A DNA stretch of 64,000 bases from Planotetraspora silvatica (lineage in GTDB: Bacteria; Actinomycetota; Actinomycetes; Streptosporangiales; Streptosporangiaceae). Every line of letters starts with the position of its first letter. The stretch's first letter is position 1. The notes beneath the pieces were generated by a model. The model was given only the letters and a program-made list of their open reading frames with translations. It had not been told where the DNA came from and made no database searches. The DNA is taken from the NCBI RefSeq assembly GCF_016863315.1, contig NZ_BOOQ01000056.1:1-64000 (forward strand). The letters run 5' to 3'. Position numbers and translations under genes: made by a program. Of the stretch, positions 11,903 to 34,494 are shown piece after piece.

Positions 11903-11949
11903 CGCGGCACGTATCCGGATCGGTCCCCGTCACGAACGCCATGGCCGTC

Positions 11950-11987
11950 AATCCTTCCTCCGCGGCGCCGTACGCGGAGGAAGGATT
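11950..11987. terminator. Perfect 15-bp hairpin terminator, probably bidirectional
   Basis: Arms 11950-11964 and 11973-11987 are perfectly complementary around an 8-base loop. It lies 48 bp after the rightward operon and 150 bp after the leftward defence operon, so it can stop both converging transcripts. Confidence 0.85.
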
Positions 11988-12003
11988 ATGGGACTGCGAG
12001 AGT

Positions 12004-12144
12004 ATGACGCGCCGATTGGCTGCCACACTGACGCCGCTCCACGATGTAACCCTGGAGAGGCTCGCTCTGCTTCGCGACGATCCGGCGGAGTATCTCGACG
12101 TTCAGGACGCCGCGGCGGAGCGACTCAACCAGGCGATCAGGTAG
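12004..12144 (+). CDS. Small ORF, doubtful
   Basis: A 46-codon frame beginning MTRRLAATL and rich in Leu, Asp and Arg. It sits after the terminator, lacks a convincing ribosome site and overlaps the last 8 bp of the convergent helicase gene. It may be a remnant or chance. Confidence 0.15.
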   Translation: MTRRLAATLTPLHDVTLERLALLRDDPAEYLDVQDAAAERLNQAIR

Positions 12145-15100
12145 CAACGGCGAGGCCTCGGCCGTCCAACAGGGAACGAAGCACCATTACAGCTGTACCT
12201 CGGCTGAGGTCTTCGTGGTAGCGCTGGTTGCGGAAGCTCCTCAGGCACCCATAGCAGGATGTCTCCTCCCCGCATTCGCAGTTGGCCACCCGGGAAAGTG
12301 CGGACTCAGCAACCTGCTCGAGCGAGCGTGCGATACGAAGGACGCTGCCCGCCCCTCCGGGCACGGCGTCGAACATGACGATCCCGAGCCGACCTCCCGG
12401 CCGGGCGAACAGAGCACCGTCGATGTCGTCGCGGCTCAACTCCAAGCGCTCTGCCGCACCTTCGAGCAGCGCGTACAGGGCTGAACGCCAGTGCACAGGG
12501 CCGGCGGACGGCGGCATCGCGAGATGGTCGAAGCTCAGGTCCAGAATGTCGGTCTCGTAGGGATGTGCGAGCGATCGCAGCTGAAGCGGGCCGGTGCAGT
12601 CCGTGCCGCGCAGCAGGTGGGTGTGCGTCTTGCCAGTCTTCGCTCCCAGGGGAACTCCGGCGCCGCACCAGTCGCAGATCAGGTAGCCGACCCCCGTGGT
12701 GCCCTCCGAGACGGCGATCAGCCGGCCACGTGATCCGGCACTCCCGCGCACGGTCCCGCCGTTCGCAGTCTTCCAGGTGAACTCTTCGACCTCCTCCGCC
12801 GCCAGGGACAGGACATGCGTGGCCCCGTTCCAGCTGCGCCTGGGCGGCGTGGTCGTGGTCTTGGACGCCTTGGCCTCGGCGACGAACCCGAACTCGGGCA
12901 CGTAGTACTGCCGGGGCGCGCTTCTCGCGACGTTCGAACACAGAGGACAAATGGGGTCGAGCTCGTCGTCGCTTTCCCGGTAGTGCTGGCAGTGCTCGCA
13001 GATCGCGTAGAACTTGCCGACAAGCTCCCGGTCCGGCAGTCGGTACACCCCTCCAGACCGCCACAGCAGACCGCCCGCCACGACCTCGGCGCCGGGTGCG
13101 TACTCGTAGATCGCAGCCGACAGGTCCCGGGTGAGTTCCAGCTTGGCCCCGACCGCCTCGCCGGAGTAGCTGGTGCGCAGCTCGACGGTGTCGACCGGGA
13201 ATCCGTACTTGGGCAGCACGTTCCGATTCGCGAGATAGCCGAGCAGATCTCGCTGGGTGAGCGTGTTGATCGTCTTCGCGTATCGGGCCACAAGATGGTC
13301 CTTGCGCTCCTCGTACGCCTTGCGGCGACGCTCTTCGAAGATCTCCACATCGAGGGTGAGCTGCCGCCCGACCTCGTCCAGCAGGCGGGCCAGTTCGTCC
13401 ACCCATTCGCCGGTGTTGACGCCGATTTCGCGCTGGACCCCGGGTGGGAGCACCCGCATCAGAGATTGGAGGACTTCCCGCGGAACTGGTGTAAGGAACG
13501 ATCGAACACGCGACGCAGGTGCGCCCTTACCGCCGGGAAGGAAGAAGTCCCCCGCAGTGCTCCACGTCTCCCCCGTCGTCTGCCTGGCGTCACGGAAGAA
13601 CGCAGAGAGCGCAATCGAGTGAGCATGTCGCCGATCGATGCGCTCATTTCCGAGCGGCACGTACGGCGCCCGCACCTTGCCCGCGATCATCGACACGGGG
13701 TCCTGGAACCGGGACAGGTCATGGGAGCGTCGCTGCGCGTAAGTGACCACAAGAGCCGCCGAGTCGGTACGCCGTCCTGCCCGCCCCGCCCGCTGCACGT
13801 AGTTGGCCGTTGTCGGTGGCATGTTGCGCAGTACCACCGACTGCAGCTCGCCCACGTCGACGCCGAGTTCGAACGTGGTCGAGCAGGACAGCATGTTGAC
13901 CTCGCCCCGCAGGAACTTCTGCTGGATGTCCGCCGCTTCGAGGCTGGTCCACTGGGCCGTGTGCTCGCGGGCGACCAGAGGCACCGGCGTCACCGACCGG
14001 TAAACGGATCGGTAGTGATTGTCGTCCTCACCGGCGACCGGAACGGGGAAGGACTCGAGCGTGCCCCCGCATCTCATCGTCGGGCATACTCCGCGGACGG
14101 ATACGGCCGAGACACGCCGGCACACTCCGCACCGATACACAGGACTGTCGACGGGTGAAAGCCGCAGCCACGTGTGATCCACCTGCCGGACCGTCCCCAG
14201 CCCCCGGACAGTCTCGGAGGCGAGCCACCCGTAGCGTTGCGCGGTGATCACCTTCCAACAGCCACGGAGCACATCCTTCGGGTCGGCGTCGGACCCAAGC
14301 GCTGTGAGCACCCGCTGGACATAGTCCAGGCGCCGGTTGACACCGCGTGTGGGCAACCAGCTGAGCACCTTCCGGGTCGGCTCGGATCCGTCCTCGCGAA
14401 CGAAGAGCGGCCCAAGCCGCGGGGCGAATGCCTCATCTCGCGGATCGACCTCGTCGGGCATGTGGAGCACTCCGGACTGGCGTAGCGTACGCAACAGTTC
14501 CGACAGCAGTCCCCAACATTCGTCGTCGGACAGCCCGAGGGCTTTCAACCCGGCTGGGGTCGGCCACCGGGACTCGCGGTCGAGGTCGACACGGATCAAG
14601 CCGAGCCCTTCCAGGGACTGCCGATCGTCCATCGCGACGAGTTCCTGCATGATCCACAGCGCGACCTCGCGTTCGCGCTGCTGCCTCGTCATACGCCGCT
14701 CGAACACGTGGGCGCGGTCAGCCGCCTTGGCGACGTAGAACGTCAGGTCCGCCACGCTGACCGCCTCGCCGTCGCGGGTGGCCGCCTGCAATCCTTCCAG
14801 GAGGAGCCGCCGATGCTGGATGCTCGCGTAGCTCGACTCGAAGTACGGGGCGAAGAACGCGGCGGCCTGCCTGCTGTCGCTGAAGGACAGCAGCTTGCGG
14901 CCCTCTCCCGGTTGATCGGCGATCTCGTCCTTGCTGGCTGGTGGCAGCGCTTGATAGAGGGCGGTTGCCAGAACGGCTACCGCCGCGTCGTTGCCGCTCT
15001 CGAAGAGCCGGACCGAGCCTGGGCCTCGTGCGCCGCAGACGCCGCAGCCCTGTGGCGAGTCGTGGAGGGTCCTGATTCTGTGGACCGGCCAGAGCGAGGT

Positions 15101-16795
15101 CTCAGAACACTCATTCCGCAAGCAGCCCAGAGGACGATGAGACCCAGCGTGCAGTGCGCCGCAGGTTGGGCACAGATAGGCCATGTCGGCCTTGATTTCC
15201 GGCGTGCCCTCGATGTCCTCGTCGTCCTCGTCGGCGACCACCGGGGCGTCACCCAGAAGCAGCCACACTCGCTGCTCGTCCTGCCTGATCCTCGGAGCGA
15301 AGACATAACCACCATCGCCGTGCCGTACCGCCCCGACCAGGTGGACGGCGCCGCAGCGTTTGCAGGCGCCGAACTCGAACATGGCGCCCTGGCATGTGCC
15401 GCAGATCTCGTGGCGACCTAGCGACACGTGCGGCCCGCTGCCGGTAAGGCAGGTGAAGGCGCCCTCGGTTGCTCTCGCGAACAGGTGGTACCGGGCCGAA
15501 AGCACGGGCGAGGCCGACAGGTCACGTACCCTGCTGCCAACGGCGACCACAGCTGCCAGCGACTCCGCCGGCCGGTCCGCGGGGTCGAACAGCAGCGGCG
15601 CCAGCTCTCCGAACATCTGAGGGCCTGCGGCGAGACGCTCACGTAGGTCGGCCATGCCCTGTTCGTGCGCCAAGACGAACCCGGGGTCGTCACCGACGAA
15701 GCCGCGTTCCTTGGCCAGCACCAAGATCTCCGAGCCGGGGTCCTCCGCCTGCGCGAGCTGCCGGTAAAGCTCGGCCGGCAGCGGCCCCCAAAACGGCGCC
15801 ACCGGGAGCTGCACCCGGCTGGCACGCACGAGGTCCCGCCGAGAGACGTCCTCGGGGACCCACTCGAATGACGCGTCGAACAGCTTGGTGGCAAAGTCGG
15901 TGACGGCCGTGGGATTGTCGCCCACGGTCGCACTCGTGGCGATGCACTGCAGTGGCTGGTCCGGCGCGACACGATCGTGCAGGCGGCGCAGCAGCATGGC
16001 AAGCTCAGCGGCCTTGGCGCCGTCGTAGACATGGGCCTCGTCCAGCGCGATGAATCGCCAGCTCCGCCCCTCGAACAGATCCAGGTCGGCCGGGCGGAGC
16101 AACAGGTACTCGAGCATCGCGTAGTTGGTCAGCAGGATGTGGGGTGGGGCTGCCCGCATCTCGTCACGACTGAGCAACTCGTTCGGCAACCGCTGCGCAC
16201 CCGGATTGAGCGCCTCAAAGGTCTCCGCGGCTACGCGGGCGCTTGCTGGCGTGTCGCCGGTGTAGCGGCCGAAGGTGATCTGCGGGACCTGCGCGAGAAG
16301 CTGCCGGAGGCGCTTGAGCTGGTCGTTGGCCAGCGCGTTCATCGGGTAGAGCAGCAGAGCCCGCACACCGGGGCCGAGCTCACCGCGCGAATGCTCGGCG
16401 ATGAGGGAGTTCAGGATCGGCAGCAAGAAGCTCTCGGTCTTGCCGGACCCGGTACCCGTGGCGACCACGATGTTCCGCCCGCGCGCCGCCTTCCGCAGAG
16501 CCTGCTCCTGGTGCTTGTACAGGGGCCGATCCAGCGGCAGCTCCGGACCGCCCAGCGCTGTGAAAGCCGGGTCGAGCACACCCTCCCTGATGAGCTGACG
16601 TGGGGTCGCCCCCGTCGCGTACGGCGGGGTGGCCTCCAGCAGTGGCCCCTTGGTCAGCATGGGGCTGCGGGTGATCTCGGCTGCCAGCGCCTCGGCGATG
16701 CGGGGCTCACGGACCGGTAACAGGGAGCGCAGGTAACGGCGGTAGCTCTCGACGATCAGCCCGCTGGTGGACAACGCGTCCAGAGTATTGGTCAC
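12137..16795 (-). CDS. Giant DEAD/DEAH helicase with C-terminal DUF1998 cysteine cluster (DruE / DrmA-DrmB-like)
   Basis: 1552-aa superfamily 2 helicase of the COG1205 type. Walker A is ATGTGSGKT at about 112-120, the DEAH box is at 252-255, motif III is TSAT, and the second RecA lobe shows TTFELGVDVGEL and VQRAGRAGRR. Many paired cysteines form likely zinc sites (CGTC...CKRC, CPTC, CGVC, CEHC...CPLC, CDWC). The C-terminus has the DUF1998 signature CECGEETSCYGCL from residue 1506. In DISARM the helicase (DrmA) and DUF1998 protein (DrmB) are separate; in Druantia DruE they are one chain, as here. It starts by ATGA overlap with the 1112-aa gene. Role: DNA translocation or unwinding in an anti-phage complex, by inference from family and context. 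Confidence 0.85.
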   Translation of the reverse strand: MTNTLDALSTSGLIVESYRRYLRSLLPVREPRIAEALAAEITRSPMLTKGPLLEATPPYATGATPRQLIREGVLDPAFTALGGPELPLDRPLYKHQEQALRKAARGRNIVVATGTGSGKTESFLLPILNSLIAEHSRGELGPGVRALLLYPMNALANDQLKRLRQLLAQVPQITFGRYTGDTPASARVAAETFEALNPGAQRLPNELLSRDEMRAAPPHILLTNYAMLEYLLLRPADLDLFEGRSWRFIALDEAHVYDGAKAAELAMLLRRLHDRVAPDQPLQCIATSATVGDNPTAVTDFATKLFDASFEWVPEDVSRRDLVRASRVQLPVAPFWGPLPAELYRQLAQAEDPGSEILVLAKERGFVGDDPGFVLAHEQGMADLRERLAAGPQMFGELAPLLFDPADRPAESLAAVVAVGSRVRDLSASPVLSARYHLFARATEGAFTCLTGSGPHVSLGRHEICGTCQGAMFEFGACKRCGAVHLVGAVRHGDGGYVFAPRIRQDEQRVWLLLGDAPVVADEDDEDIEGTPEIKADMAYLCPTCGALHAGSHRPLGCLRNECSETSLWPVHRIRTLHDSPQGCGVCGARGPGSVRLFESGNDAAVAVLATALYQALPPASKDEIADQPGEGRKLLSFSDSRQAAAFFAPYFESSYASIQHRRLLLEGLQAATRDGEAVSVADLTFYVAKAADRAHVFERRMTRQQREREVALWIMQELVAMDDRQSLEGLGLIRVDLDRESRWPTPAGLKALGLSDDECWGLLSELLRTLRQSGVLHMPDEVDPRDEAFAPRLGPLFVREDGSEPTRKVLSWLPTRGVNRRLDYVQRVLTALGSDADPKDVLRGCWKVITAQRYGWLASETVRGLGTVRQVDHTWLRLSPVDSPVYRCGVCRRVSAVSVRGVCPTMRCGGTLESFPVPVAGEDDNHYRSVYRSVTPVPLVAREHTAQWTSLEAADIQQKFLRGEVNMLSCSTTFELGVDVGELQSVVLRNMPPTTANYVQRAGRAGRRTDSAALVVTYAQRRSHDLSRFQDPVSMIAGKVRAPYVPLGNERIDRRHAHSIALSAFFRDARQTTGETWSTAGDFFLPGGKGAPASRVRSFLTPVPREVLQSLMRVLPPGVQREIGVNTGEWVDELARLLDEVGRQLTLDVEIFEERRRKAYEERKDHLVARYAKTINTLTQRDLLGYLANRNVLPKYGFPVDTVELRTSYSGEAVGAKLELTRDLSAAIYEYAPGAEVVAGGLLWRSGGVYRLPDRELVGKFYAICEHCQHYRESDDELDPICPLCSNVARSAPRQYYVPEFGFVAEAKASKTTTTPPRRSWNGATHVLSLAAEEVEEFTWKTANGGTVRGSAGSRGRLIAVSEGTTGVGYLICDWCGAGVPLGAKTGKTHTHLLRGTDCTGPLQLRSLAHPYETDILDLSFDHLAMPPSAGPVHWRSALYALLEGAAERLELSRDDIDGALFARPGGRLGIVMFDAVPGGAGSVLRIARSLEQVAESALSRVANCECGEETSCYGCLRSFRNQRYHEDLSRGTAVMVLRSLLDGRGLAVAT

Positions 16796-19700
16796 TGCAT
16801 CTCCGTATTCGCCCGGCTGACCAACAGCTCGGCCAGCACGAGATCAATGGTCACGAGATCGGGAGCGATGGCCGCCAGCCGGGTCCAGTCGGCGCGAAAA
16901 GTCTGCTCCGCCGTACGGCACTGCGCGTCGCCCCGGGCGGCAAGCCGCGCGACCATCGCGAAGGCGATCGACGCAGCCGGGAGGCTACGCCATCCTCCTA
17001 GCCCCTCCGGATTCCTGCGCTGGTCAAGCTGCGGAAGGAGGTCTAACCGCTCGGCCCGGCGCAGCACAGCATCGGCGGTCTTGACGGCGTACAACGCCAT
17101 GCTGCCGACCTCTCGGGCGCCCGCCTCGCCGCGCGCGTCGAACAGCCGCCGTGCCGCCGACGCACGGGTATCGGCGTCGAGGAGGGCCCGGGGGACGACG
17201 TTCGCTGCGCGCCAAATGCCTTCAATCTGCTGAGGGGTCATGTGGACCAGCCGGTCGGCGTCCGCCCCGAAGCGGCCCACGCCGACGAACGGGTCGGCTC
17301 CATCGGCCACGATCTCCCTGAGTACCTCGCCACACTGCCGCTCGGCTGCGGCGAAACAATCCTCGTCCTGCAAGCCGCCCGCGAGCGCGGCGACCGCCGG
17401 CACGACCGGCCACATCCTTCTTGCGGCGTCCGCGTTCACCGTGGCCGGTACGGCTGTCGCGGCCAAGCCTGAGGAGATCAGACAGGCCAGAGTGCGCGCG
17501 GGCTTCAGGCCAAGGCCGACCAGTGCGCTCTGAGCGTCGAAAGGACGCCGCTGAATCGGCTGCGAACAGGTCATGAGGAACCGCTGCAGATCGGAGGCAG
17601 GCCGCAGCCGCTCCGCCAGGTCGATCATCATCCAGACACGCCACAGACCGTCGACTTCATCGGGGAAGTCGCCTTCTCCCGAGATGAAACGCGCCAGCGC
17701 CGTCTCCTCCGGGTCATCGGAGATGACGTGTCCGTCTCCGCCCACCATGAGGTACTGCTTGGGCCAGCGTGGCCACTCCACGGGCACCCACGGGTCGTCC
17801 ACCTGCAACAGCACCAGCAGCGGCCCGGCATCGCGCAACTCGAGAGGTAACGGGACCGACCCGTCAGCATCTACCGGCTCGACTATTGGCTCGCGCCAGG
17901 GCGCGGTGGACGCGTAGATGCCCGCCGTGAGCCCGTCCACCGGCACGTGGTCGACGAGCCGGAGGTGATCTCCCTCGCGTTCAGCCGCGTGTGCGAGCTG
18001 GCGCGGCCGTACGCTCCCGACCCGGATGACGTCGCTGCCGACCTCAAGGAGAAGGTCGGCCAGCTTGTGCTCGGCAATGGTGTCGGCGATCTTCACGAGG
18101 TCGAACCGGGCCGTCCCCTCCTGCGGCCGCCCGCTCGCCGGCAGGTCCTGTACAACATTGCCCCCGACGACGACGTGCAACGAGGGCAGCGCGAAACGTG
18201 TCTCGGGCACGCGGACGAGCAGGGCTCCAGGTGCATCGGCGAACGAGTCGGCGGGAATGCGCAGCGGTCCAGCCCGCCAGATGGGCGACTCGGCCTCTCG
18301 CTCGTGCATGACCTCGACGCGAGGCGGCGTGACGACCAGCGGCTCCGTCTGCTCACCAGTCCGATACTCCGCGATCGCCGCCAAATCTGCCGAGCCGTAT
18401 GAGATGGCCCGCGGCGCTGCCTGCGCCCCCACTGCCGCGGTGAGCTCCGCCTTCCCCTGGGCGAGCCCGGCCGCGCCGAAGAGGCGCACCCGCGGAGTGA
18501 AGCGGGCGCCAAGTCCTTCCGCGACGAAGACCGTCCGCTTTGCCCCGCGGCCCAGCGGTCCACGGACCACGATGTCGAAGGCTCCCAAGACCGGGCGGCT
18601 GGGGAACGCGTCTTCGATCTCGGTGATCGACAAGGGGCCGCTGATCGTGTGGCTGCTGGACATGACCGCCTCGTCGCTCCCGACCCGGCGGACGTCGACC
18701 TGCCAGGTCGTCTCGGCTCCCTCCTGGCCTGGAAGCCAGACCTCTGGCATCTTCGCGTAGACGGGACTCCCATACGGCGTGGTGACACCGGCGACGGGAT
18801 CGCCGGTCACGATCCGCGGACGGGTATAGCCGCGGACGGGCCTGCGGCTGCCGGGAAGCCCGGCCAGCCCCAGCGACCGGACGCCTTCCAGGGAGACTTG
18901 CCGCAGCCGCCACCCCGTCCAGCCCAGCGGCAACTGCCCCTCGATGGTCACGGCCAGCGGGCCGTCCGTTGTGAGCTCGTGCTCGCCGGGATAGGCGACC
19001 CAGACCACGTCCGGTGGCAGTGGCATCGTCGCGGGAAGCCGTCTGCCATCCTCAGCGAACACCAGCATCGGCGCAGCCGGGTCGATCACCTGCAGCTCGG
19101 TTTGGTGCTGCCAGCCCGCCAGCGCGACGACGGCGGTCCGCACCGGCTTGAGCAGGCTGAAGTTCGTGGCGGGCGCGGCCTCGGCCACCCCCACCCACTG
19201 AGCGCGGCTGCGCACCGTGCTGATGACCCCGTCGGCTGTCACGGTCCACGTCGCCAGACCGTCAGGCGTGTCGCCGACCGCAGGCAGGACAACCTCGACG
19301 CCACGACCGAACGGATCGAGGGCGATCCGGGGCCGTTCCGCCCTGGTGCGGCTCTCCCCCGATGAGCTCGGAACACTGAGGTCGAGCTGTCGCTCGGCCG
19401 CCAGTTCCTGGGCGCGGGCCAGCACCCGGGGTGGAAGCGCAACGCCATCGAGGTCCGGAGCCGGATCCCTGAGCCGGTCGAGCAGGTCGAAGGTGCGCTC
19501 CACGAAGTCCAACGCGAACTCCGTGCCGTGCTGCAGGAACCTGCGGGCCGGCACATCGAGGTTGTCGAGCCGGTGTTCAGTCCCGGGCGACGTCGCCCAG
19601 GCAAGGAACGCCTCGGCGTCGAGCCCCCGGTCGCTCACTCTGCGATGGGCGATGAGGCGGAAATAGTCCTCCAGGCAGTACGTGGGAATGCCGGTGTGCA

Positions 19701-20130
19701 TGAGGATCGGGCCGACGTACGGCATCGGCATGCCCTGGAACGTCGGCATGCCAAGGGCGTCAACCGCGTTGGCGAAGCCCTTACCCCAGGTGGCCTGCTC
19801 CTCAGGCAGTCCCCGGTATCCGACGGCAGTCCAGAGATCTCGCCAGAACTCCCCGCGCCGGTAATGGCGGGCGGCGACGGCCGTCATGGCCACGGCCACG
19901 CAGGCAGGCCATCGCGTGAAGAAGGTGTGTGGCTTGCGCCCGCTGGCGAGCCACTTCGAGTAAACCCTGCCGAGGACGGCTGCGACCTGCTCGCTGTGCC
20001 CGTCCTTGATGTCGACCTCGGCGACTAGGGAGGAGCCACGCAGCCGTTTCGACCATGCCCCCTCCCGGAGGTTCAGCAGCTCGGTAGCGCCGACCTTCCT
20101 GGCAGGACTTCCGTCTTCAGCCTCCGCCAT
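16792..20130 (-). CDS. Large protein of unknown fold, partner of the DUF1998 helicase (possible DruH analogue)
   Basis: 1112 aa; I recognise no catalytic motif. The N-terminus (VGATELLNLREGAW) recurs in the stub at 22324-22575. After it comes an aromatic and Arg-rich segment (about 65-115: HTFFTRWPACVAVAM, HYRRGEFWRDLW), then a long region predicted to be mostly beta-strand (about 270-780), then a helical C-terminus. Size and tight ATGA coupling to a helicase-DUF1998 gene recall the large DruH partner of Druantia type III, but I cannot confirm homology by eye. GAGG lies before the ATG. The 53-bp gap to the DUF262 gene is the widest spacing in this half of the operon. Confidence 0.8.
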   Translation of the reverse strand: MAEAEDGSPARKVGATELLNLREGAWSKRLRGSSLVAEVDIKDGHSEQVAAVLGRVYSKWLASGRKPHTFFTRWPACVAVAMTAVAARHYRRGEFWRDLWTAVGYRGLPEEQATWGKGFANAVDALGMPTFQGMPMPYVGPILMHTGIPTYCLEDYFRLIAHRRVSDRGLDAEAFLAWATSPGTEHRLDNLDVPARRFLQHGTEFALDFVERTFDLLDRLRDPAPDLDGVALPPRVLARAQELAAERQLDLSVPSSSGESRTRAERPRIALDPFGRGVEVVLPAVGDTPDGLATWTVTADGVISTVRSRAQWVGVAEAAPATNFSLLKPVRTAVVALAGWQHQTELQVIDPAAPMLVFAEDGRRLPATMPLPPDVVWVAYPGEHELTTDGPLAVTIEGQLPLGWTGWRLRQVSLEGVRSLGLAGLPGSRRPVRGYTRPRIVTGDPVAGVTTPYGSPVYAKMPEVWLPGQEGAETTWQVDVRRVGSDEAVMSSSHTISGPLSITEIEDAFPSRPVLGAFDIVVRGPLGRGAKRTVFVAEGLGARFTPRVRLFGAAGLAQGKAELTAAVGAQAAPRAISYGSADLAAIAEYRTGEQTEPLVVTPPRVEVMHEREAESPIWRAGPLRIPADSFADAPGALLVRVPETRFALPSLHVVVGGNVVQDLPASGRPQEGTARFDLVKIADTIAEHKLADLLLEVGSDVIRVGSVRPRQLAHAAEREGDHLRLVDHVPVDGLTAGIYASTAPWREPIVEPVDADGSVPLPLELRDAGPLLVLLQVDDPWVPVEWPRWPKQYLMVGGDGHVISDDPEETALARFISGEGDFPDEVDGLWRVWMMIDLAERLRPASDLQRFLMTCSQPIQRRPFDAQSALVGLGLKPARTLACLISSGLAATAVPATVNADAARRMWPVVPAVAALAGGLQDEDCFAAAERQCGEVLREIVADGADPFVGVGRFGADADRLVHMTPQQIEGIWRAANVVPRALLDADTRASAARRLFDARGEAGAREVGSMALYAVKTADAVLRRAERLDLLPQLDQRRNPEGLGGWRSLPAASIAFAMVARLAARGDAQCRTAEQTFRADWTRLAAIAPDLVTIDLVLAELLVSRANTEMQ

Positions 20131-20183
20131 TTCAGGCCTCGACGCGATTAGTCATGACAAGTACCACTATTCCTAGATACGGA

Positions 20184-22181: not shown

Positions 22182-22323
22182 GCGAGCTCCGTGTCATCAG
22201 TTGGGGGCCTGACCGCGCCTGGCATGATCAATTGTTGATGCGAGTTTCCCGTACAAGTGCATCGAGCTGAGCGGACCGTTGATTACAGAAAGTCGTGATC
22301 ACGGCTTCCCGTCGGCTCCGTTC

Positions 22324-24707: not shown

Positions 24708-24803
24708 TCATCCTCACGAAGGTCGGGTCTCAACGTGCCGGTTGCGGCGCTAGACGGGTATAGGCGATCGGACACGGGCCGGTCGACGCCGGCCCGTGCC
24801 AGT

Positions 24804-27800: not shown

Positions 27801-28193
27801 CACCTCCTCCGCCCGATCCATCGCACCGACGGCGGTCAGCAGCCGCTCCATCGTGTCGAGGCCCCGGTAGGTGTCGTCAGCGGAGAACGGCTTGGTGTGC
27901 GCCCACTTGTTGCCGACCTCTTTCAGCTCGCCGGCGAAATTCTGCTCCACCCGCGAAAGCCGGTCCTTGAAGACTCGCCACTCCTCGACGATGACCCGCA
28001 GCAGGAACCGCACGTCGGTCTTCTCGTAGACCTTGTTCGTCCCGTGCTTCGCCGCGTCCCGCGCCTGAAGGACCTCCACCCAGTCCTTACTGCCGGGCAT
28101 GGCCATGTCCATCATCATGTCGACGAAGGGCTCCAGCCCCGCCCCGAGGACTTCCAGCCCGCGGCCGATCCTGTCCCTGTTGCTGAGTGCCAT
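24804..28193 (-). CDS. DUF499 AAA-type ATPase with Swt1-like HEPN N-terminus
   Basis: 1129 aa from the ATG at 28193, five bases after the methyltransferase stop and preceded by AGAGGA; the longer open frame to 28286 overlaps the methyltransferase and is not coding. Residues 1-125 resemble the Swt1-type HEPN helical domain (VGNKWAHTKPFSADDTYR). Walker A is NFGGGKTHS at about 247-255 and Walker B is CLILIDEWVAY. A Gly/Ser/Thr/Pro linker, roughly residues 1000-1050, joins a short C-terminal domain. DUF499 ATPases co-occur with DUF1156 methyltransferases. Inferred role: nucleotide-driven motor or switch in the restriction-like complex. Confidence 0.87.
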   Translation of the reverse strand: MALSNRDRIGRGLEVLGAGLEPFVDMMMDMAMPGSKDWVEVLQARDAAKHGTNKVYEKTDVRFLLRVIVEEWRVFKDRLSRVEQNFAGELKEVGNKWAHTKPFSADDTYRGLDTMERLLTAVGAMDRAEEVRKLRLDHQRSLYDSETRKASSAVTSMPTIEANGLKPWREIINPHPDVAAGKLDAAEFAADLHMVSIGESSSEEYTDPVQFFRRTYLTEGLQDLLRKAVARVGGDMNATPVWNLQTNFGGGKTHSMLALWHMFSGTPMHEFPQEVVDLLGDIDTSAVGGKVNRAALVGNHIDPAAGKVKNDGTHAHTLWGELAWQLGGREAYEMVRVADEAHTNPGDALREVIARYSPCLILIDEWVAYARQLYGRDDLPAGTFDTQFTFAQTISEQVKAVPGALLVVSIPASSHGETEDAIMGSALEVGGVNGQAALDRLQNVIRRVAQQWQPARAHESFEIVRRRLFEEPDARAKAEIGAIAKQFWKFYNDHKGEFPRECSETSYEQRIANAYPIHPELFDRLYEDWSTLDRFQRTRGVLRLMSTVIHKLWVAQDAGPLIMPGSVPLNDPAVASELTQYLQDNWKTVLETDVDSETATPVQIDKERTVFGKRALTRRLARTLFLGAAPTLTKQHKGVEQQNLWLGVAIPGDVVGNFGSALHVLTDRATFVYVDGARYWFDTQASVTRTAKDYGERLYQEDVWLEIVTRLRTKEPKVRSDFAAVHVTDDSQDVPDTGDARLVILHPKFVHAKGDDKSSARVFAQNVLDTRGSSQRINRNMLVFLAGDAKRMEELGQAVRDYLAWDNISGRTEELDLGAQQIKQVETRRSNADQAVDLRIRETYFWAFLPDQQPGAHITWQTEKADGSKDRLAERVSAKLRQRDALRTVQAASVIRGNLDGPLASVWERGHISVEELWSYYCRYPYLPRLRDRVVLDSGILAGLDEFDWEATGFALATGHDGTRFEGLAVPPTGRFGQITDGTMLVRPDLAIAQREAEQVPAGGGAGGAGGGNAGGGDGSGSGGSEGQTGGSAGQTGGGQPGGGDVTPPGPKNVRFFGAVKLNPELPQKSFTKIYTELVQHLSAVDGVELELAIEIRAKRADGFPEDKVRIVSENAKVLKFDQFGFEDR

Positions 28194-28198
28194 CGTGG

Positions 28199-30988
28199 TC
28201 AGTCCTCTTCGGGGGTAAGGTCGAGGGTCTGCTGCGTGTTCATGATTGGTACGGCGGTGCGGGACGCCTTCTCGATCTCCGACCAAGCCGAGCCGAGCCC
28301 GTTGAAGAGCAGAGCGGTTTGGGCCCAGTTGCGCCGCTCGCAGATCGAGAAGAGCAGATAGGCAAGCTCCTTGGCTGTGTCGAGGTCGACCCGGCTCTTG
28401 GCGGCGGCCATCAGCTGCCCGGCAGCCTCGATGCCCTGCTCGTCGAGTCGCTTAGCTAGGTGCATGGCCACTTCCCAGACCGAGATCCGATCATCGGCCA
28501 ACGGGTCGTAGGTTTCGGGCAATTCGCCGGGACTCAAGAGCTGCACGATCCCAGCTCGTGCCTTGAGCACGCCAGAGCGGTCAAGCCCCGCCACGGAAGT
28601 GTCCAAGGCCTTGGACAGCGTCTCAGCCTGTCCGTACTTGCCCTCGTCGAAGCCGTGGGTCTCAAACCACTTGATGCAGAATCGGGTGTCCGAATCGAAG
28701 TCGCCCTCCTGCTCAGAAAGCACCTCAGCCAGGATCTGGTTGATCAGGATTAGCGCCGCCCGCACGCTCATCGGAGAGCCATCCGATTCGGTCACCCGGG
28801 CATAGCGAGAAAATACCGCCATCCCGGGTCCAATCGCCGCCTGCGCTAAGTCCACCGGAGCGATCCCACCCTGCTGCACTTCCTTTAACGCACCGGGGAG
28901 CTCCGCTTTAAGCGTGTTGATCAACGCTCGTCGGTCGATTACGCCCGCATCTTCCGGGCGAGGCCGACACGCAAGAACAACCGATGAAGCGAGCGCGTTG
29001 CTGACCATGCCACGCATACGTGTTGCCATCTCGGTCCGCATAGGCCACGTGGCCGTAATCGCCCAGCCAGAACGAATCATTCCCTCCAGCAGGGTCTCCC
29101 AGCCAGTTGACGCCTCGCCAACGTCATCACTCTCTGCCTGTTTGAATGCATAAAAGACTGTCGTTGGGTAGAGAACAATGGCCTCTCGCCGAATGCTGCT
29201 AAAGACCTGCCGGAATCCTTCCTCGAAGAATTGAGTAGCCTGTTCTTTACCGCCTCGCCGATACTGATCCGCAACGAGCTCTCCTGATTTTGGTGTCAGG
29301 AGTGTTCCGAGCAGGTCAGAGAAGACGTCCCCAAGCGAGCGACGCAACCAGACGTAGAAGAAGTCAGAGAGATCCGCATACGCAACATTGTCATAGTATG
29401 GCGGATCAGTCGATATAATGACATTTGAGTAGTCTCTTTTGGTGGCATCCCACTGAGAAGCGACGGCCAGACCGAGTCCAGGTACGCCCCCGAGAACCTT
29501 GCAAACCCCATCGATGATGCCCGACCAATCCCCGCCTGCTCCGGCATATGGAGAGACTTCCGCGAAGTCCCAAACCATTGGGATTGCCTGTCGGCCAAAC
29601 GCCTGGGCGCTCTTGTCAGCATCAGGCCGCCAACGAGCCTGTGTGCAATGAAATACAGCAGCTTTACTTGCAGCTAATGCCAGATATAGAGCAGCGGAGT
29701 CAGCATAAGCTACCGCACCGGTTCCTCCATGAACGAGGGAATCGCCATGGGGAATCTCCGCAGCAAGGGCATCAGCAAGAATATTTTGCCGAGCCTCACC
29801 AACGAGGCTATTGAGAGTAGTAAGCATGACGAGTTGACGGTTGGTGAACAGGTCTGCCCACTCGGTCATCCCGTAGCCCTGCACACGAAAACCGAGAGCT
29901 TGATCCGGAAGCTCTCCATCGGGCACATCGTTTGGCCGTTCGACCTTAGCGACCTGCTCATGCTCGTCAGTTGGGGCCAGGTAGTAGCGCATCCGAGGGC
30001 CTTCAGCGGCAATGGCCATAAGCTGAGCGTCCATCCGCCCTGCTTTGCCCTCAGCGCGGATATAGGTTAGCGGAACCGGGGTGTTGCAAATCATGCACAC
30101 GCCACCGTTACGGCCAACAACTCCTTCCCGAGGCTGTCCCTTAGGGCCGCGGATTTCGAAACGTACACGCTTGCCTTCCACGACCGGTTCAACGTAGCGC
30201 TCCTTGCCCTTCTTCTTTCCAAGCCAGAAGGAGTGGACCAGCGGCATGGTGCCACCACAAGCTGGGTTAGGGCATGTGACCGTACGTGCCCAGATCCAGG
30301 CGATGACGTTAGCTTCGGTGCCATCCTCCAGCTTCGCCTTCGGGTAAAGGTGACCGATGCGCTTCTCCGTCTCGTCACGCATCCACTGACCGTAGCGACG
30401 AACGTCCTCGGCAAGGCCCGTCGCTCCAGGCCAGTCACCCATCCGCGATTCGGCAGCCCCGGGGAACACCGGCGGCTGCCCCGCCCACTTCGGGGGGATC
30501 TCGATGAGGGCCTTGTTGATAAGGACCGGGACCGGGTTCAAGTCGGAGGCATGAGCCTCCAGGCCGAGCCGCTGGGCTTCCAGCGGGATCGAGCCGCCAC
30601 CCGCGAACGGGTCGAGGATGGGCGGCGGGTTTCCCTCGCAGGACTTCATGATTTCGGCGTGGGCCTCTTCGTACAACGCCTTGTCATTGACGTTGTCCCA
30701 GTCGACCAGTCGCTCGATGATGTTGAAGAGCCTCTTGCGCTCTAGGAGCACGTCTTCATCAGAAGGGAACTCGTCCGGACGCGAGGACGGGTCGTCCACG
30801 AGTTGTGCGAAGAGCACAGCCCTGCAGGCAGCCAGCGGGCGGCGAGCCCACCACAGGTGGAGCGTGGACGGGTGGCCATGCCTGATCGACTTCTCACGAG
30901 CCGACTGCTTGTTGATCTCCTCCAGCGGCAGCGCGACCTCGATCAGCTTCTTGCGGGGGGTGCCGTTCGATCCGGTCCCACTGCTCAT
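28199..30988 (-). CDS. DUF1156 adenine-specific DNA methyltransferase with Zn ribbon (DrmMI-like)
   Basis: 929 aa. The N-terminal DUF1156 domain begins LIEVALPLEEINKQSAREK. The SAM motif DPFAGGGS is at 126-133, a split zinc ribbon at CPNPAC (239-244) and CMIC (298-301), and the catalytic DPPYYDN at 528-534. The long insert between motifs I and IV is normal for COG1743. It should methylate adenine N6 and so mark self DNA for the helicases and nucleases around it. Start chosen at the ATG at 30988 (ATGA overlap, GAGGAGGAG upstream) rather than 31012. The second half (29,000-30,000) is visibly less GC-rich than its neighbours, suggesting transfer. Confidence 0.9.
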   Translation of the reverse strand: MSSGTGSNGTPRKKLIEVALPLEEINKQSAREKSIRHGHPSTLHLWWARRPLAACRAVLFAQLVDDPSSRPDEFPSDEDVLLERKRLFNIIERLVDWDNVNDKALYEEAHAEIMKSCEGNPPPILDPFAGGGSIPLEAQRLGLEAHASDLNPVPVLINKALIEIPPKWAGQPPVFPGAAESRMGDWPGATGLAEDVRRYGQWMRDETEKRIGHLYPKAKLEDGTEANVIAWIWARTVTCPNPACGGTMPLVHSFWLGKKKGKERYVEPVVEGKRVRFEIRGPKGQPREGVVGRNGGVCMICNTPVPLTYIRAEGKAGRMDAQLMAIAAEGPRMRYYLAPTDEHEQVAKVERPNDVPDGELPDQALGFRVQGYGMTEWADLFTNRQLVMLTTLNSLVGEARQNILADALAAEIPHGDSLVHGGTGAVAYADSAALYLALAASKAAVFHCTQARWRPDADKSAQAFGRQAIPMVWDFAEVSPYAGAGGDWSGIIDGVCKVLGGVPGLGLAVASQWDATKRDYSNVIISTDPPYYDNVAYADLSDFFYVWLRRSLGDVFSDLLGTLLTPKSGELVADQYRRGGKEQATQFFEEGFRQVFSSIRREAIVLYPTTVFYAFKQAESDDVGEASTGWETLLEGMIRSGWAITATWPMRTEMATRMRGMVSNALASSVVLACRPRPEDAGVIDRRALINTLKAELPGALKEVQQGGIAPVDLAQAAIGPGMAVFSRYARVTESDGSPMSVRAALILINQILAEVLSEQEGDFDSDTRFCIKWFETHGFDEGKYGQAETLSKALDTSVAGLDRSGVLKARAGIVQLLSPGELPETYDPLADDRISVWEVAMHLAKRLDEQGIEAAGQLMAAAKSRVDLDTAKELAYLLFSICERRNWAQTALLFNGLGSAWSEIEKASRTAVPIMNTQQTLDLTPEED

Positions 30989-33900
30989 ACCGGTGCTCCT
31001 CCTCGTGCCCATTCCTTGTTCCAGTCGCCAACCAGGTCGGTTGCGGAGAAATCGCCGAAATCAACATCCCTGAAGGGATCGGCGACGTACCGCACCTCGT
31101 CACGCTTCGCTCCGTCCGGATGCACACTTACGAGCGCAAGCCGGAAGTTGGAGCCCGAGTTCTTACCTGTCAGGACTTCCGTGCGTGTGACGTGGAAGTC
31201 CGGCGCGCCGTTTACACGGCCTTTAATTTCGATGAAGATCCAGTGGTCGTCGACGGTCCGAGACCGGACGTCGAAGCCGGGGTTGCTGTGCGGCATCTCC
31301 TCCGGAAGCCGGCCGAGCTTGCGCTCCTCGGCCAGCACGCGCTCGACCGCACGGCGCTCCACGGCAGCCGTCTCACGCGCGTACGCCTCCACCGGGCCGG
31401 TACGCAGGCCCATCAGCCGGTCCAGCAGACCCTGCGGCACGACCAGCGCGGCCCCGGCCACCGTCGGTGCTTTGACCTGCAGAAGCTGGGCCTGGTCGAG
31501 GTCGGCCATCCGGCGCTCCAGCCGGGCCTCCAGCGCCCGTGCGCGTTTCTCGGCGGTCTCCGGCCGGATCTTCAGCACCTTGCCTGCCAGCTCGGCGTCG
31601 AGCAGGTCGGCATGCCGGGTGTCCCAGTAGTTGATCTCCTGGAGGAGGCGCTGCCGTACCAGAGAGCGAGTGCGCGCGGTCTGGGCGGCGAGGCGCTCGC
31701 GAAGCTCGCCGATGAACGTGGCGAGTCCGTGCTCGACGGCCCAAGCGACCGCGACGTCCTCCACCCCGCCGGCCAGCCAGTCCTCCCCCAGCACCGCACC
31801 GACAGCGGCACGTTCCTGCTCGGTCGCGGGCGCGTAGTCCAGGTACGGCGCGGCCCCGGCCGTACGTGCCGAAGCTGGGCCGATCTCCACGAAGTCGAAG
31901 CGCTTGGCGATGACGCGTGCGTCGCCGTCAGCGACCTCCTGGGAGACCGCGACCAGCAGGTGCGGCTCTTCCCCCACGTCGCGCCTGTCGACCAGCACCG
32001 CGCCCTGTTTGAGCTGCGTGCCGTACCGCTCGATGACCAGCGAGACCACCGCGTCGAGCAGCGGGTGGCCGGGGGCGAGCAGGTCGGCGCGGGGCCGGCC
32101 GGCGGGCCGCACCAGGTCTCGGTCGAACGTGACGCGCTCGTAGCGCCGCAGGACCGGGACGCCCACCCTGATCTGGCGGTCGTGCTCGACCAGGTCGCCC
32201 GGCACATGCGTGATCTCGTAGCGGCCCGACTCCCGCTCGGAGATGCGCCCGCCGAGCAGCTTGAACGCCGCGAGGAAGAACGCCTTGACGTAGTGCGGCT
32301 GCAGGCGGCGGGCGCGGGCCTCCTCCATGCGCAGCCGCCACGCGGCCACGTCGCTCTCGTCGAGCTTGTGATGCGCCAGCGACCGCTCGGCCATCAGCTT
32401 GTCCAGGCCCTCGCCGACGGAGGAGTCGATGACCTGGTTGAGCCGGTCGCGGACTTCCGGCCGGTCGCCGTACTGGATGGCCTCCATGAGGAGCTTGCGC
32501 AGCGGCTCGCCCTGGAACGCCTCGCCGAGGACGTCGAAGACCTTCCCCTTGTACGCGCGGCGCTGCTCGTCGATTTTGTCGAGGATGCGTACGAATACGG
32601 CGCCTTCGCGGGTGTCGGCGGCGACGAGGTTCCACAGGTGGCAAACCTCGGTCTGCCCGATGCGGTGGATGCGGCCGAAGCGCTGCTCGATCCGGTTCGG
32701 GTTCCACGGCAGGTCGTAGTTCACCATGAGATGGGCGCGCTGAAGGTTCAGTCCCTCCCCCGCCGCGTCCGTGGCGACCAGGACCTGACAGGCCTTGTCC
32801 TGGGTGAACAGCTCCTTGATGCGGCGTCGCTGGTCGCGGGAGACGCCGCCGTGGATCGCGACCACGGCTTCATCGCGGCCGATGAGACCGCGGATGCGGT
32901 CAACGAGGTATTCGAGCGTGTCCTTGTGCTCGGTGAAGACGATCAGCTTGCGTGGGCCGCCGTCGGTGTCGCGGATCAGGGCGTGGCTCTGCAGCAACTC
33001 CGACAGCTCGGTCCATTTGCGGTCGGTGCCGAGGTTTCGCACCCGGCGTGCAACCTCGACGAGGTCGGTGAGGATGCCGATCTCCTTGTCGAGCTCGGCG
33101 ATGGTCTGCGCCGTCGTCGCGGCGTCGACCACGTCGTCTTCGAGCTCCTCGACGTCGGTGCTGGGCATGTCGTCGAGCTCGGTGTCCAGCTCGGTGACGT
33201 CCTTGCCGAGCAGGACGGCGAGGCGCAGCTTCAGGCGGCCATCCGGCTCGTGTCTGCCGGTGGCCAGCTCGTGGCGGAGCTGCTGGAGGCGCTTGTGGCG
33301 GCGTTCGAGCGACTTGAGAATCGCCTCGGGGCTGGAGGCGAGGCGGCGCTGGAGGACCGTGAGCGCGAAGCCGACCGTGTTGCCGCGGCGCCCCTCGCCT
33401 TGCGCGGCGAGCTGCTGGGCCTTGCCCATCTGCTCGCGGACATATTCGGTGACGACCTCGTAGAGCTCACGCTCGGCGTCGGACAGCTCGTAGGGGACGG
33501 TGTAGGCGCGGCGCTCGGGGAACAGCGGCTTGCCTTCGAAGGTGAGCAGGTCTTCCTTCACCATGCGCCGCATGAGGCCGTCGGTGTCGGCCGAGCTGAT
33601 GCCCTCACGGTATTTGCCCTCGAACCGGTCGGAGTCGAGCAGGCCCATGAAGAGCTGGAAGTCGGCCTCGCTGCCGGCGTGCGGGGTCGCGGTCATCAGC
33701 AGCAGGTGGCGGGCGTGGCGGCCGAGGAGCTCCCCGAGCTGGTAGCGCTTGGTCTTCTTCAGCTCCTCGCCGAAGTAGCGAGCGGACATGCGGTGCGCCT
33801 CGTCGACCACGACCAGGTCCCAGTCGCTCTGGCTGAGCTGCTCCTGCAACTCCTCGCTGCGGGAGAGCTGATCCATCCGGGCGATCAGCAGAGGATGGCG

Positions 33901-34494
33901 CTCGAATGCGCTCTGGTCGAGCTGCTCCTCGACGAGCTGGCGGGTGAGCAGCGTGAAGCGCAGGCCGAACTTCTCGAGCAGCTCCTCCTGCCACTGCTCG
34001 ACCAGGCCGCCGGGTGCGACGATCATGCAACGTTCCAGGTCGCCCCGGAGCATCAGCTCCTTGATGTAGAGCCCGGCCATGATGGTCTTTCCGGCGCCCG
34101 GGTCGTCGGCCAGAACGAAGCGCAGCGGGGACCGGTCCAGCAACTCGCCGTAGACCGCCTGGATCTGGTGCGGCAGCGGTTCGAGATCGCTCGTGGTGAC
34201 GGCGAGCATGGGGTCGAAGCGCGCGGCCATACGGATGCGCAGTGCCTCGGCGGCCAGCTTGAAGAGCGCGCCGTCGCCGTCGAAGGCATAGGCGGCCGAT
34301 TTCTCGCGCAGGACAAGCTGGGGCTCGTGGTCGCGGTAGAGAAGCTGGTCGGCCACGCCGCTGTCGGTGCGGTAGGTGAGGTTGACCGCGTTCGAGCCAT
34401 ACCACTTGACCGCGACAACGGACACGTCACCGGTCGGCGTCACTCCGCCCACGACGGCGCCCGGCGTCAGGTCTTCCAGCCTGACGCTGGTCAT
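30985..34494 (-). CDS. SNF2-family helicase with C-terminal DUF3883 nuclease-fold domain (DrmD-like)
   Basis: 1169 aa, first gene of the operon. Walker A ADDPGAGKT is at 129-137, DEAH at 231-234, MTATPHAGSEAD follows, and the second lobe carries VATDAAGEGLNLQ and QRFGRIHRIGQ. A helical region spans about 690-1040. From residue 1071, NPGFDV with FIEIKGR gives D1075, E1089 and K1091, a D-x(13)-ExK arrangement of the Mrr/PD-(D/E)XK type; DUF3883 domains have this fold. DrmD of class 1 DISARM is a similar SNF2 helicase beside a COG1743 methyltransferase. No clear Shine-Dalgarno precedes the ATG. Confidence 0.88.
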   Translation of the reverse strand: MTSVRLEDLTPGAVVGGVTPTGDVSVVAVKWYGSNAVNLTYRTDSGVADQLLYRDHEPQLVLREKSAAYAFDGDGALFKLAAEALRIRMAARFDPMLAVTTSDLEPLPHQIQAVYGELLDRSPLRFVLADDPGAGKTIMAGLYIKELMLRGDLERCMIVAPGGLVEQWQEELLEKFGLRFTLLTRQLVEEQLDQSAFERHPLLIARMDQLSRSEELQEQLSQSDWDLVVVDEAHRMSARYFGEELKKTKRYQLGELLGRHARHLLLMTATPHAGSEADFQLFMGLLDSDRFEGKYREGISSADTDGLMRRMVKEDLLTFEGKPLFPERRAYTVPYELSDAERELYEVVTEYVREQMGKAQQLAAQGEGRRGNTVGFALTVLQRRLASSPEAILKSLERRHKRLQQLRHELATGRHEPDGRLKLRLAVLLGKDVTELDTELDDMPSTDVEELEDDVVDAATTAQTIAELDKEIGILTDLVEVARRVRNLGTDRKWTELSELLQSHALIRDTDGGPRKLIVFTEHKDTLEYLVDRIRGLIGRDEAVVAIHGGVSRDQRRRIKELFTQDKACQVLVATDAAGEGLNLQRAHLMVNYDLPWNPNRIEQRFGRIHRIGQTEVCHLWNLVAADTREGAVFVRILDKIDEQRRAYKGKVFDVLGEAFQGEPLRKLLMEAIQYGDRPEVRDRLNQVIDSSVGEGLDKLMAERSLAHHKLDESDVAAWRLRMEEARARRLQPHYVKAFFLAAFKLLGGRISERESGRYEITHVPGDLVEHDRQIRVGVPVLRRYERVTFDRDLVRPAGRPRADLLAPGHPLLDAVVSLVIERYGTQLKQGAVLVDRRDVGEEPHLLVAVSQEVADGDARVIAKRFDFVEIGPASARTAGAAPYLDYAPATEQERAAVGAVLGEDWLAGGVEDVAVAWAVEHGLATFIGELRERLAAQTARTRSLVRQRLLQEINYWDTRHADLLDAELAGKVLKIRPETAEKRARALEARLERRMADLDQAQLLQVKAPTVAGAALVVPQGLLDRLMGLRTGPVEAYARETAAVERRAVERVLAEERKLGRLPEEMPHSNPGFDVRSRTVDDHWIFIEIKGRVNGAPDFHVTRTEVLTGKNSGSNFRLALVSVHPDGAKRDEVRYVADPFRDVDFGDFSATDLVGDWNKEWARGGAPV

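Follow-up and report, generated by a model that had tools for sequence, protein, structure and literature searches.

Genes of the cassette

The window, a 64-kb stretch of Planotetraspora silvatica DNA, contains a cassette of approximately 26 kb that lies on the minus strand throughout and encodes, in order, an N6-methylase, a protein kinase, HmaA, HmaB, HmaC, a CoiA-like protein, a GmrSD-type endonuclease, DruH and DruE, with a druH scar between the genes for the CoiA-like protein and GmrSD. A preliminary description had placed a coupled leftward operon of eight genes at 12137–34494. The ORF list bears out the positions and strand of its large ORFs, but this interval holds seven large intact genes, all on the minus strand, and the sole further candidate found is an 83-codon ORF at 22324–22575. 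The genes are coupled only in parts, as overlaps (HmaA/HmaB, 28 bp; coiA/druH remnant, 4 bp; druH/druE, 4 bp) are mixed with gaps of 5 bp (HmaB–HmaC), 53 bp (GmrSD–druH), 96 bp (HmaC–coiA) and, from the coordinates, 142 bp (remnant ORF–GmrSD). A scan of 20000–39000 returned one promoter-like site (1.9 expected) and nine terminator-like sites (9.0 expected), counts that are no better than chance and therefore uninformative on operon structure.

The unit reaches upstream to 38479, its two additional genes being set off by gaps of 339 and 136 bp. We include the kinase and N6-methylase genes in it because the block 12192–38652 is common to the window and Planotetraspora thailandica by blastn, whereas the compared flanks do not align. 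The methylase (36524–38479, minus strand) is the first gene of the unit and has a PF02384 domain with an NPPF motif (N6_Mtase, 8e-29; PADLOC MTase_I, 348 bits). It is thus a second methylase in a unit to which only one self-marking methylase had been ascribed. Its counterpart in P. thailandica (82%) is syntenic, as is a 43% relative in Microbispora rosea; in a further genome, G643, a 46% relative lies 4 kb upstream of the kinase, beyond the distance limit of our 18-locus Hma table. The Ser/Thr protein kinase (34834–36387, minus strand) shows HRDL and DFG motifs (Pkinase, 1.4e-42) and a TPR region. No tRNA was found within the 64-kb window, and a tRNA-anchored island was rejected on this basis. 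Searches of five genomes, including that of P. silvatica, with the flanks matched only parts of them in scattered places and did not demonstrate an empty site in the genus.

The HmaA, HmaB and HmaC profiles of PADLOC are matched near full length by three adjacent genes. HmaA (30985–34494, minus strand; 1425 bits over residues 4–1145) is a SNF2-type helicase with a C-terminal NOV_C domain (5e-15), which we take to be the DUF3883-type domain and which appears intact by motif. HmaB (28199–31012, minus strand; 1130 bits) is a DUF1156 N6-adenine methylase with DPFAG at residue 134 and DPPY at residue 536. Its hypervariable region, at about residues 400–550 (29363–29812, minus strand), falls between these motifs. 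Identity to P. thailandica is 42–50% here compared with 70–96% in the remainder, and blastn alignments break at 29413–29763 (P. thailandica), 29413–29812 (M. rosea) and 29413–30123 (G442); this region is presumed to be the target-recognition domain. HmaC (24804–28193, minus strand; 893 bits) is a DUF499 ATPase (5e-27) with an N-terminal HEPN_Swt1 domain (1.7e-31). Its start is probably 28193 rather than 28286, because relatives align from residue 32, a methionine. The DUF499 protein had been described as lying outside either canonical gene set; since it matches HmaC, the third Hma gene, it is not an extra gene.

Pfam confirms the domain labels of the preliminary description (SNF2/helicase with NOV_C, DUF1156, DUF499, GmrSD_N, and a DEAD helicase with MZB), but not its view that these genes form a class 1 DISARM-like half joined to a Druantia-like one. 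HmaA is a distant relative of DrmD, which would fit such a hybrid (384 bits in PADLOC; 368 bits in NCBIfam, where the cut-off is 610). However, the SNF2 protein in question reaches 1425 bits with HmaA, and the DruE-like helicase has only a weak DrmA match (59 bits in PADLOC). DrmMI is absent from all 13 PADLOC families matched by HmaB, nor do DrmB, DrmC and DrmMI figure in the family lists of the seven proteins, which for the two helicases show the best 25 of 48 and the best 25 of 57 matches. With distant DrmD and DrmA similarity alone, class 1 DISARM was rejected on profile scores, and we give a DISARM-1/Druantia hybrid almost no credence.

The HEPN_Swt1 domain of HmaC (27825–28163, minus strand) carries GNKWAH, and most relatives have an arginine where the glycine stands. 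In an alignment covering 13 of the 18 Hma loci, glycine replaces this arginine in all six kinase-associated copies, and the arginine is kept in six of the seven others. Because the change is also present in G675, a locus with no DruHE, it is the signature of a clade and not of the Hma–DruHE pairing. The altered HEPN domain accompanies the kinase-bearing Hma clade.

Downstream genes and the putative druH scar

The CoiA-like protein (711 aa; 22572–24707, minus strand) consists of a Cys/His-rich N-terminal domain (CG..GGCG, HFAH, SADHL) and a helical C-terminal part that is hypervariable. The name CoiA-like is founded solely on motifs; the protein has no match in PADLOC, Pfam or NCBIfam. One alignment column, presumably that of the expected acidic residue of a PD-(D/E)XK site, holds K, Q, A, R or C and is never acidic in the 15 CoiA-like proteins aligned. 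The other two of the three nuclease sites proposed earlier, NOV_C and the HNH of GmrSD, appear intact by motif. The predicted structure, built from three sequences, has a mean pLDDT of 52.7, with values below 50 in the N-terminal domain.

The 5' end of a druH gene (22456–22575, minus strand) follows coiA, coupled to it by ATGA, and opens the 83-codon ORF with a druH-type start (61% over residues 7–44, E 4e-7). Compared with the intact druH copy, 23 of 33 residues are identical (score 117, whereas 500 shuffles of the start in M. rosea reached at most 44). P. thailandica probably also carries a weaker druH trace, which scores 44 with the intact druH of that species, where 500 shuffles reach at most 36. 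In M. rosea, the druH start is overlapped by the coiA stop (TAATG). We read the remnant behind coiA as a putative recombination scar.

GmrSD (20184–22181, minus strand) is here flanked by this scar and the intact druH, and no assignable gene is found in the 142 bp preceding it. A DUF262-DUF1524 protein had been described, domains that we take to be GmrSD_N and GmrSD_C. The first is clear (GmrSD_N, 8e-24, with DGQQR; PADLOC HEC-05, 133 bits). GmrSD_C scores 20.6 bits, under the Pfam cut-off of 23; nevertheless the YHHIHP motif is present. GmrSD lies downstream of Hma in 7 of the 18 Hma loci.

The remnant and the lost HEPN arginine could mean that the island is decaying and no longer under selection, and the truncated druH, together with the probable weaker trace in P. 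thailandica, speaks for this. However, the other frames are open across 26 kb, the helicase, methylase and kinase motifs are kept, and every cassette protein except CoiA (53%) is 79–97% identical to its P. thailandica counterpart. We consider decay highly improbable.

The last two genes correspond to the Druantia-like half of the preliminary description, which stands. The DruE-like protein (1552 aa; 12137–16795, minus strand) is a YprA-family helicase with an MZB/DUF1998 zinc domain (PADLOC DruE1, 575 bits; Pfam DEAD helicase and MZB), although the tree behind it carries long-branch warnings. No C-terminal nuclease was found in it by Pfam, and the protein ends 34 aa past MZB. The DruH-like protein (1112 aa; 16792–20130, minus strand) has no Pfam match and is predicted to consist of N-terminal helices, a central beta/Ig-like string and C-terminal helices (pLDDT 85.4, pTM 0.59); its Foldseek matches are mostly Ig-string proteins and the like, with low TM-scores. 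Neither pairwise BLAST nor a three-sequence profile found similarity to canonical DruH, and the PADLOC DruH models match none of the 21 family members scanned. The family profile, in contrast, aligns by hhalign with a canonical DruH profile (94.6%, E 7e-8, score 80.5), whereas 20 column shuffles score no higher than 24.4 and the reversed control scores 19.5. This canonical profile was built from the eight reference DruH genes minus L098, which is interrupted. A DruE-like gene comes next after DruH in 18 of 22 loci, the remaining four contigs ending first. Based on the hhalign score, the predicted fold and this gene order, the two proteins form what we judge to be a divergent Druantia III-like DruH–DruE pair; a new, unrelated helicase partner was rejected, as the 1112-aa protein matches canonical DruH by profile comparison. 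Of the DruE residue positions reported for Mycobacterium smegmatis, at best five of nine are matched in L019 (offset 0), five in the window (offset −15) and four in L021; for DruH, the matches are six of eleven in L021 (offset −9), five in L019 and three in the window. These residues weakly support membership of the same family. The divergent DruH family spans Actinomycetota, Chloroflexota, Planctomycetota and one Latescibacterota genome, and had no match in plasmids, phage records or viral contigs.

Recurrence and proposed organization

A failure to find the genes together elsewhere had been put forward as a refutation of the preliminary description, but the full gene set is found again in P. 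thailandica. A search for the combination found Hma and DruHE together in 5 of the 18 Hma loci examined: the window, P. thailandica, M. rosea, G442 and G643. Strand and order are alike in these five genomes, but the payload differs. CoiA and GmrSD both occur in the window and P. thailandica, CoiA alone in M. rosea, GmrSD alone in G442, and GmrSD with 7 kb of other genes in G643 (GmrSD in four loci, CoiA in three, both in two). By their labels the five composites all belong to one family, in which most of the searching was done. DruHE occurs without Hma in 27 of 32 DruH loci, and Hma without DruHE in 13 of 18, so neither needs the other. The DruH proteins of the composite loci form one clade in 0% of 200 bootstrap trees, a stand-alone copy (G473) falling among them. 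A single origin of these proteins, though possible, is not supported by the trees, and repeated assembly accounts for the pattern better than a long shared evolution.

These counts cover 18 of the 27 neighborhoods of DruH-bearing genomes, with G520, G451 and G498, which are contigs of L018, L020 and L025, each counted once. For HmaB-bearing genomes they cover 17 of 35 neighborhoods plus G400, the other 18 being distant or incomplete; on contig number, length and coordinates, G396 and G397 are treated as identical to G409 and G667. The table leaves aside L022, L023, L028 and L032, whose contigs end before DruE, and L029 and L033, which have little upstream DNA; the upstream DNA of each locus in it is at least 5.4 kb long (the value for G476).

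We propose, with moderate confidence, that the locus is a recurrent, modular, layered anti-phage cassette with an Hma core and an exchangeable payload; that the two systems within it are Hma and a Druantia III-like system is very likely. The core would be an Hma/type-1 BREX-related system in which self DNA is marked by HmaB, and probably by the upstream N6-methylase, HmaC scans DNA, and the HmaA helicase-nuclease attacks DNA that is unmarked. The genes downstream would be a replaceable payload, and the scars suggest that such parts are swapped in and out. Modified phage DNA escaping the first layer would be cut by GmrSD, and DruH–DruE would serve as a sensor-helicase layer acting later, to block phage replication or abort the infection. 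The layers would be largely autonomous, yet passed on, and probably also expressed, as a unit. The sequences show the identity, order and recurrence of the genes, the scars, and the hypervariable parts of HmaB and CoiA; we infer self-marking, the targets, co-transcription and the successive action of the layers, as well as any functional coupling of Hma and DruHE.

The same genes could instead be independent defense systems that sit side by side in a defense island, their order inherited and functionally meaningless. Each module is commoner alone, and the 142 bp before GmrSD hold no assignable gene. However, the constant strand and order in five genomes, the stop-start overlaps (coiA/druH in M. 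rosea, coiA/remnant in the window) and a block shared with a second Planotetraspora species in different flanks argue against mere adjacency, which we regard as possible but doubtful.

At the other extreme, the locus could be one integrated machine, in which HmaABC both marks and recognizes DNA and hands the substrate to DruE, replacing the canonical DruE nuclease, with the kinase gating the switch. DruE is indeed short (1552 aa, compared with 2104 aa in the canonical DruE of L091) and has no nuclease domain found by Pfam, and the HEPN arginine is lost in every kinase-associated locus, as though something else had assumed its effector role. Of the 18 Hma loci, six have the kinase upstream of HmaA: all five that carry DruHE and one of the 13 that do not (one-sided p 0.0007, a value that overstates the association because the loci are kin). 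Against this, the accessible text of PMC12458937 gives nuclease-less DruE as the commonest state in the type III-like branch generally, and G675 has the HEPN change without DruHE. We consider an integrated machine unlikely. More speculatively, and with considerable doubt, one lineage within Hma may have given up a built-in HEPN suicide RNase, leaving a fixed kinase-HmaABC core that docks exchangeable GmrSD, CoiA-like and DruH–DruE cassettes, with druH scars left behind, and a kinase that coordinates the marking, restriction and abortive layers. If this were true, all layers would share one trigger, and the locus would be a programmable multi-layer system.

The modular cassette that we favor is a clear case of whole defense systems joined in one unit with a recombination scar still legible, and cooperation between neighboring defense systems becomes testable within one natural locus. 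PADLOC would be expected to call Hma and a lone DruE here rather than a complete Druantia III. As its models miss the divergent DruH family, Druantia III-like systems are probably under-counted.

Comparison with known systems

Our literature search, which covered PMC12629846, PMC10273834 and PMC10855318 (in which both words occur) as index entries, found no prior account of an Hma–Druantia fusion, and Druantia together with DUF499 gave no literature match. The word Druantia is absent from the accessible text of PMC12839542.

From the portions available of PMC8565338 and PMC12839542, the Hma system of the former is the type-1 DUF499-centred BREX-related system of the latter. The window shares its helicase-nuclease, DUF1156 N6-methylase and DUF499 ATPase, which often has an N-terminal HEPN domain. 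HmaB is described as an m5C methylase in Payne 2021 (PMC8565338, same portion), but the DPPY motif of the window protein points to N6-adenine. The clade of the window locus has lost the HEPN arginine; however, the HEPN fusion occurs in 1370 of 2446 taxa according to that part of PMC12839542, and is thus optional, so that an absent arginine does not exclude membership of Hma. GmrSD has the GmrSD_N domain with DGQQR and the HNH-like C-terminal region of type IV/HEC-05 enzymes. HEC stands for Hma-embedded candidate in the excerpt of PMC12988326, and GmrSD-family nucleases are already described in the BREX literature as auxiliary effectors of BREX and BREX-related systems (PMC12839542, accessible text).

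The adjacent large DruH and YprA helicase with DUF1998 are those of Druantia III and its type III-like relatives, as far as described in the accessible text of PMC12458937, PMC13192584 and PMC13316683, the last of which terms MZB (PF09369) DUF1998. The same portion of PMC13316683 reports anti-phage activity through DruH–DruE contact for the M. smegmatis pair. In contrast to Druantia III, the C-terminal PLD-type nuclease was not found in the window DruE, a state that fits the type III-like branch; the window DruE is also shorter than that of L091, and the pair sits behind Hma. The window DruH is too divergent for PADLOC and is related to canonical DruH by remote homology alone, and is therefore filed as Druantia III-like.

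ARMADA, in the available part of PMC12458937, likewise places a YprA helicase beside a BrxHII/RapA-like helicase and an adenine methylase. However, the YprA protein of the window has no C-terminal Vsr match and pairs with DruH, for which reason ARMADA was rejected, and where ARMADA has a PglX-like methylase and a BrxHII-like helicase, the window has Hma-type proteins, together with DUF499. The locus appears to be novel in how it combines known systems, not in the type of system it represents.

Hma genes and the extent of the unit

The interval 12137-34494 of the window, previously described as an eight-gene operon joining DISARM-1-like and Druantia-like halves, is filled by seven large ORFs on the minus strand. 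The three upstream genes match the PADLOC profiles for HmaA (1425 bits), HmaB (1130 bits) and HmaC (893 bits) over nearly their full length. The preliminary description had based this half on the DISARM helicase DrmD. We reject that identity, as the same SNF2 helicase that scores 1425 bits against HmaA reaches only 384 bits against the PADLOC DrmD profile, and 368 bits against the NCBIfam DISARM DrmD model (cut-off 610). A HEPN_Swt1 domain (Pfam), earlier overlooked, lies at the N-terminus of HmaC. The HEPN motif arginine, which we take to be catalytic, is retained in 6 of 7 other aligned Hma loci, and the position is glycine in all six kinase-associated Hma loci.

Alignment of the window with Planotetraspora thailandica extends over 12192-38652. 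Beyond this interval no alignment was found in the 48 kb compared, except that another methylase gene matches in two short stretches. The genes originally assigned to 12137-34494 are present, but the boundary drawn was too small; upstream, the unit also takes in genes for a Ser/Thr kinase (34834-36387) and, further out, an N6-methylase (36524-38479). Between the two species HmaA is 97% identical, DruH 95% and DruE 94%. Only 42-50% identity is found across HmaB residues 400-550, where the blastn alignment breaks at residues 416-533, between the motifs DPFAG and DPPY. The recognition insert of HmaB-type methylases sits within the methylase core, according to PMC12839542.

A second N6-methylase (42001-43920, minus strand), also of the MTase_I family (353 bits, PADLOC), has approximately 71% DNA identity over 1794 bp to the methylase ahead of the kinase in Microbispora rosea. 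Because of this resemblance, two methylase types seem, from sequence comparison, to alternate ahead of the kinase. Further away are two adjacent dynamin-family GTPases of 642 and 530 aa (51054-54629, minus strand) and a further dynamin-like fragment (48481-49140, plus strand). The window's lowest G+C 2-kb block (0.56) falls at 56000-58500, where ORFs of 469, 279 and 185 aa yield one weak helicase-like match and one CBS domain.

A divergent DruH beside DruE

The last gene of the cassette (12137-16795) matches DruE1 with 575 bits and DruE3 with 565 bits in PADLOC. At the limits applied, neither PADLOC nor Pfam nor NCBIfam gives a match for the 1112-aa protein encoded ahead of it (16792-20130). 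A non-exhaustive peptide-pattern scan of the species-genome collection returned 62 stretches, 22 of which encode relatives, spanning Actinomycetota, Chloroflexota, Planctomycetota and other groups. A DruE-like gene is directly next in 18 of these loci, and in the remaining four the contig end comes first. The PADLOC DruH models match none of 21 scanned family members. A canonical DruH profile was assembled from seven proteins encoded at Druantia III loci on plasmids. One, from E. coli, was confirmed at 2539 bits in PADLOC; the other six are its tblastn relatives located beside DEAD helicases. Using hhalign, the 1112-aa family aligns with this profile over 498 columns, starting in the central region, with a probability of 94.6% (E 6.9e-8). 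The score is 80.5, compared with at most 24.4 for 20 column-shuffled controls and 19.5 for the reversed profile. We identify the 1112-aa protein as a divergent DruH; this tie, together with the DruE matches, bears out the Druantia-like downstream half. In a tree, the 15 DruE-like partners examined fall in a single clade, apart from four canonical DruE3 proteins (support 100/100, with long-branch warnings).

Recurrence, inserts and exchange

The arrangement earlier presented as one operon recurs elsewhere: the order kinase-HmaABC-...-DruH-DruE is also found in M. rosea and in two further comparison genomes (G442 and G643), and P. thailandica shares the window's layout. Within the DNA compared, 5 of 18 Hma loci, counting the window, have DruH-DruE downstream, and 5 of 32 DruH loci have Hma upstream. 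The kinase occurs in 6 of the 18 Hma loci, namely 5/5 with DruH-DruE and 1/13 without (one-sided p 0.0007, which overstates the case because the loci are kin). Since the methylase occurs in none of the 13 Hma loci lacking DruH-DruE, the methylase-kinase pair tracks DruH-DruE more than Hma. Of the 27 DruH loci that lack Hma, five have a related methylase nearby and four a related kinase.

The 665-aa protein (20184-22181) contains GmrSD_N and a weak GmrSD_C domain (Pfam). GmrSD follows Hma in 7 of 18 Hma loci, three of these without DruH-DruE. The CoiA-like 711-aa protein (22572-24707), present in 3 of 18, likewise matches no PADLOC, Pfam or NCBIfam model at the limits applied. Its Cys/His-rich domain is well conserved and its helical tail variable: identity to P. 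thailandica is 92-98% over residues 1-250, 48-54% over 251-350 and 0-38% beyond. In G494 (L068/L069, contig C26, joined coordinates 18058-27671) four large ORFs of 1086, 404, 352 and 538 aa immediately precede a coiA-like gene; the 538-aa product is related to an N6-methylase, and the set resembles a type I RM system in size and order only. This placement suggests that defence operons in general may carry CoiA-like proteins as accessories. The otherwise similar G643 locus (L204/L205) carries approximately 7 kb of extra genes between GmrSD and druH (joined coordinates 5200-12060). An insert of similar length separates HmaB from HmaC in G516 (L130/L131, joined coordinates 18417-25277), possibly as Hma-embedded cargo. 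Three proteins from each insert were compared with Pfam and have no matches.

A second DruH match in the window's own genome (residues 7-44, 61% identity) lies directly behind coiA and overlaps its stop. In M. rosea, whose locus yielded no GmrSD, the coiA stop has the same kind of overlap with the start codon region of a complete druH. In G442, HmaC is followed directly by GmrSD and then druH. In our reading, the window recombines M. rosea-like and G442-like layouts, with a coiA-druH junction cut inside druH and followed by a GmrSD-DruH-DruE block. However, the window's DruH is 64% identical to the M. rosea copy versus 59% to the G442 copy, which counts against a simple recombinant version. 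The druH trace is weaker in P. thailandica, scoring 44 to its own intact copy versus a shuffle maximum of 36. The DruH proteins of the loci that combine Hma with DruH-DruE form no single clade in the tree. G472 has no Hma beside its coiA-like gene, and the frame that comes immediately after that gene (L066/L067, contig C29, joined coordinates 17653-18105; 151 aa) begins like DruH (37.5%, E 2e-8) and ends like DruE (46%, E 3e-11). It looks like an independent deletion at the same place.

Proposed working and known systems

HmaB, and perhaps the N6-methylase upstream of the kinase, would mark self, and HmaC and HmaA would locate and cut unmarked DNA, as we infer from PMC12839542. GmrSD, judging from its family, would cut modified DNA escaping Hma. 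For relatives, PMC13316683 and PMC13192584 describe DruH as a sensor of late phage products and DruE as a block to replication; the proteins here would act likewise. The CoiA-like protein is, at a guess, a sensor or adaptor. Any mutual dependence of the Hma, GmrSD and DruH-DruE layers is putative.

In the AlphaFold2 model of DruH (mean pLDDT 85.4, pTM 0.59), a long beta region lies between N-terminal and C-terminal helices. Foldseek matched the model mostly to Ig-like domain strings, with low TM-scores. The layout of this predicted model resembles that of the cryo-EM DruH in PMC13192584. The window's DruE stops 34 aa past its zinc-domain match (Pfam), and PMC12458937 describes such an ending for the majority of the 'Druantia type III-like' branch. 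The open-licence papers searched yielded no description of an Hma-Druantia combination; both halves, Hma and Druantia, and GmrSD beside such systems are already published.
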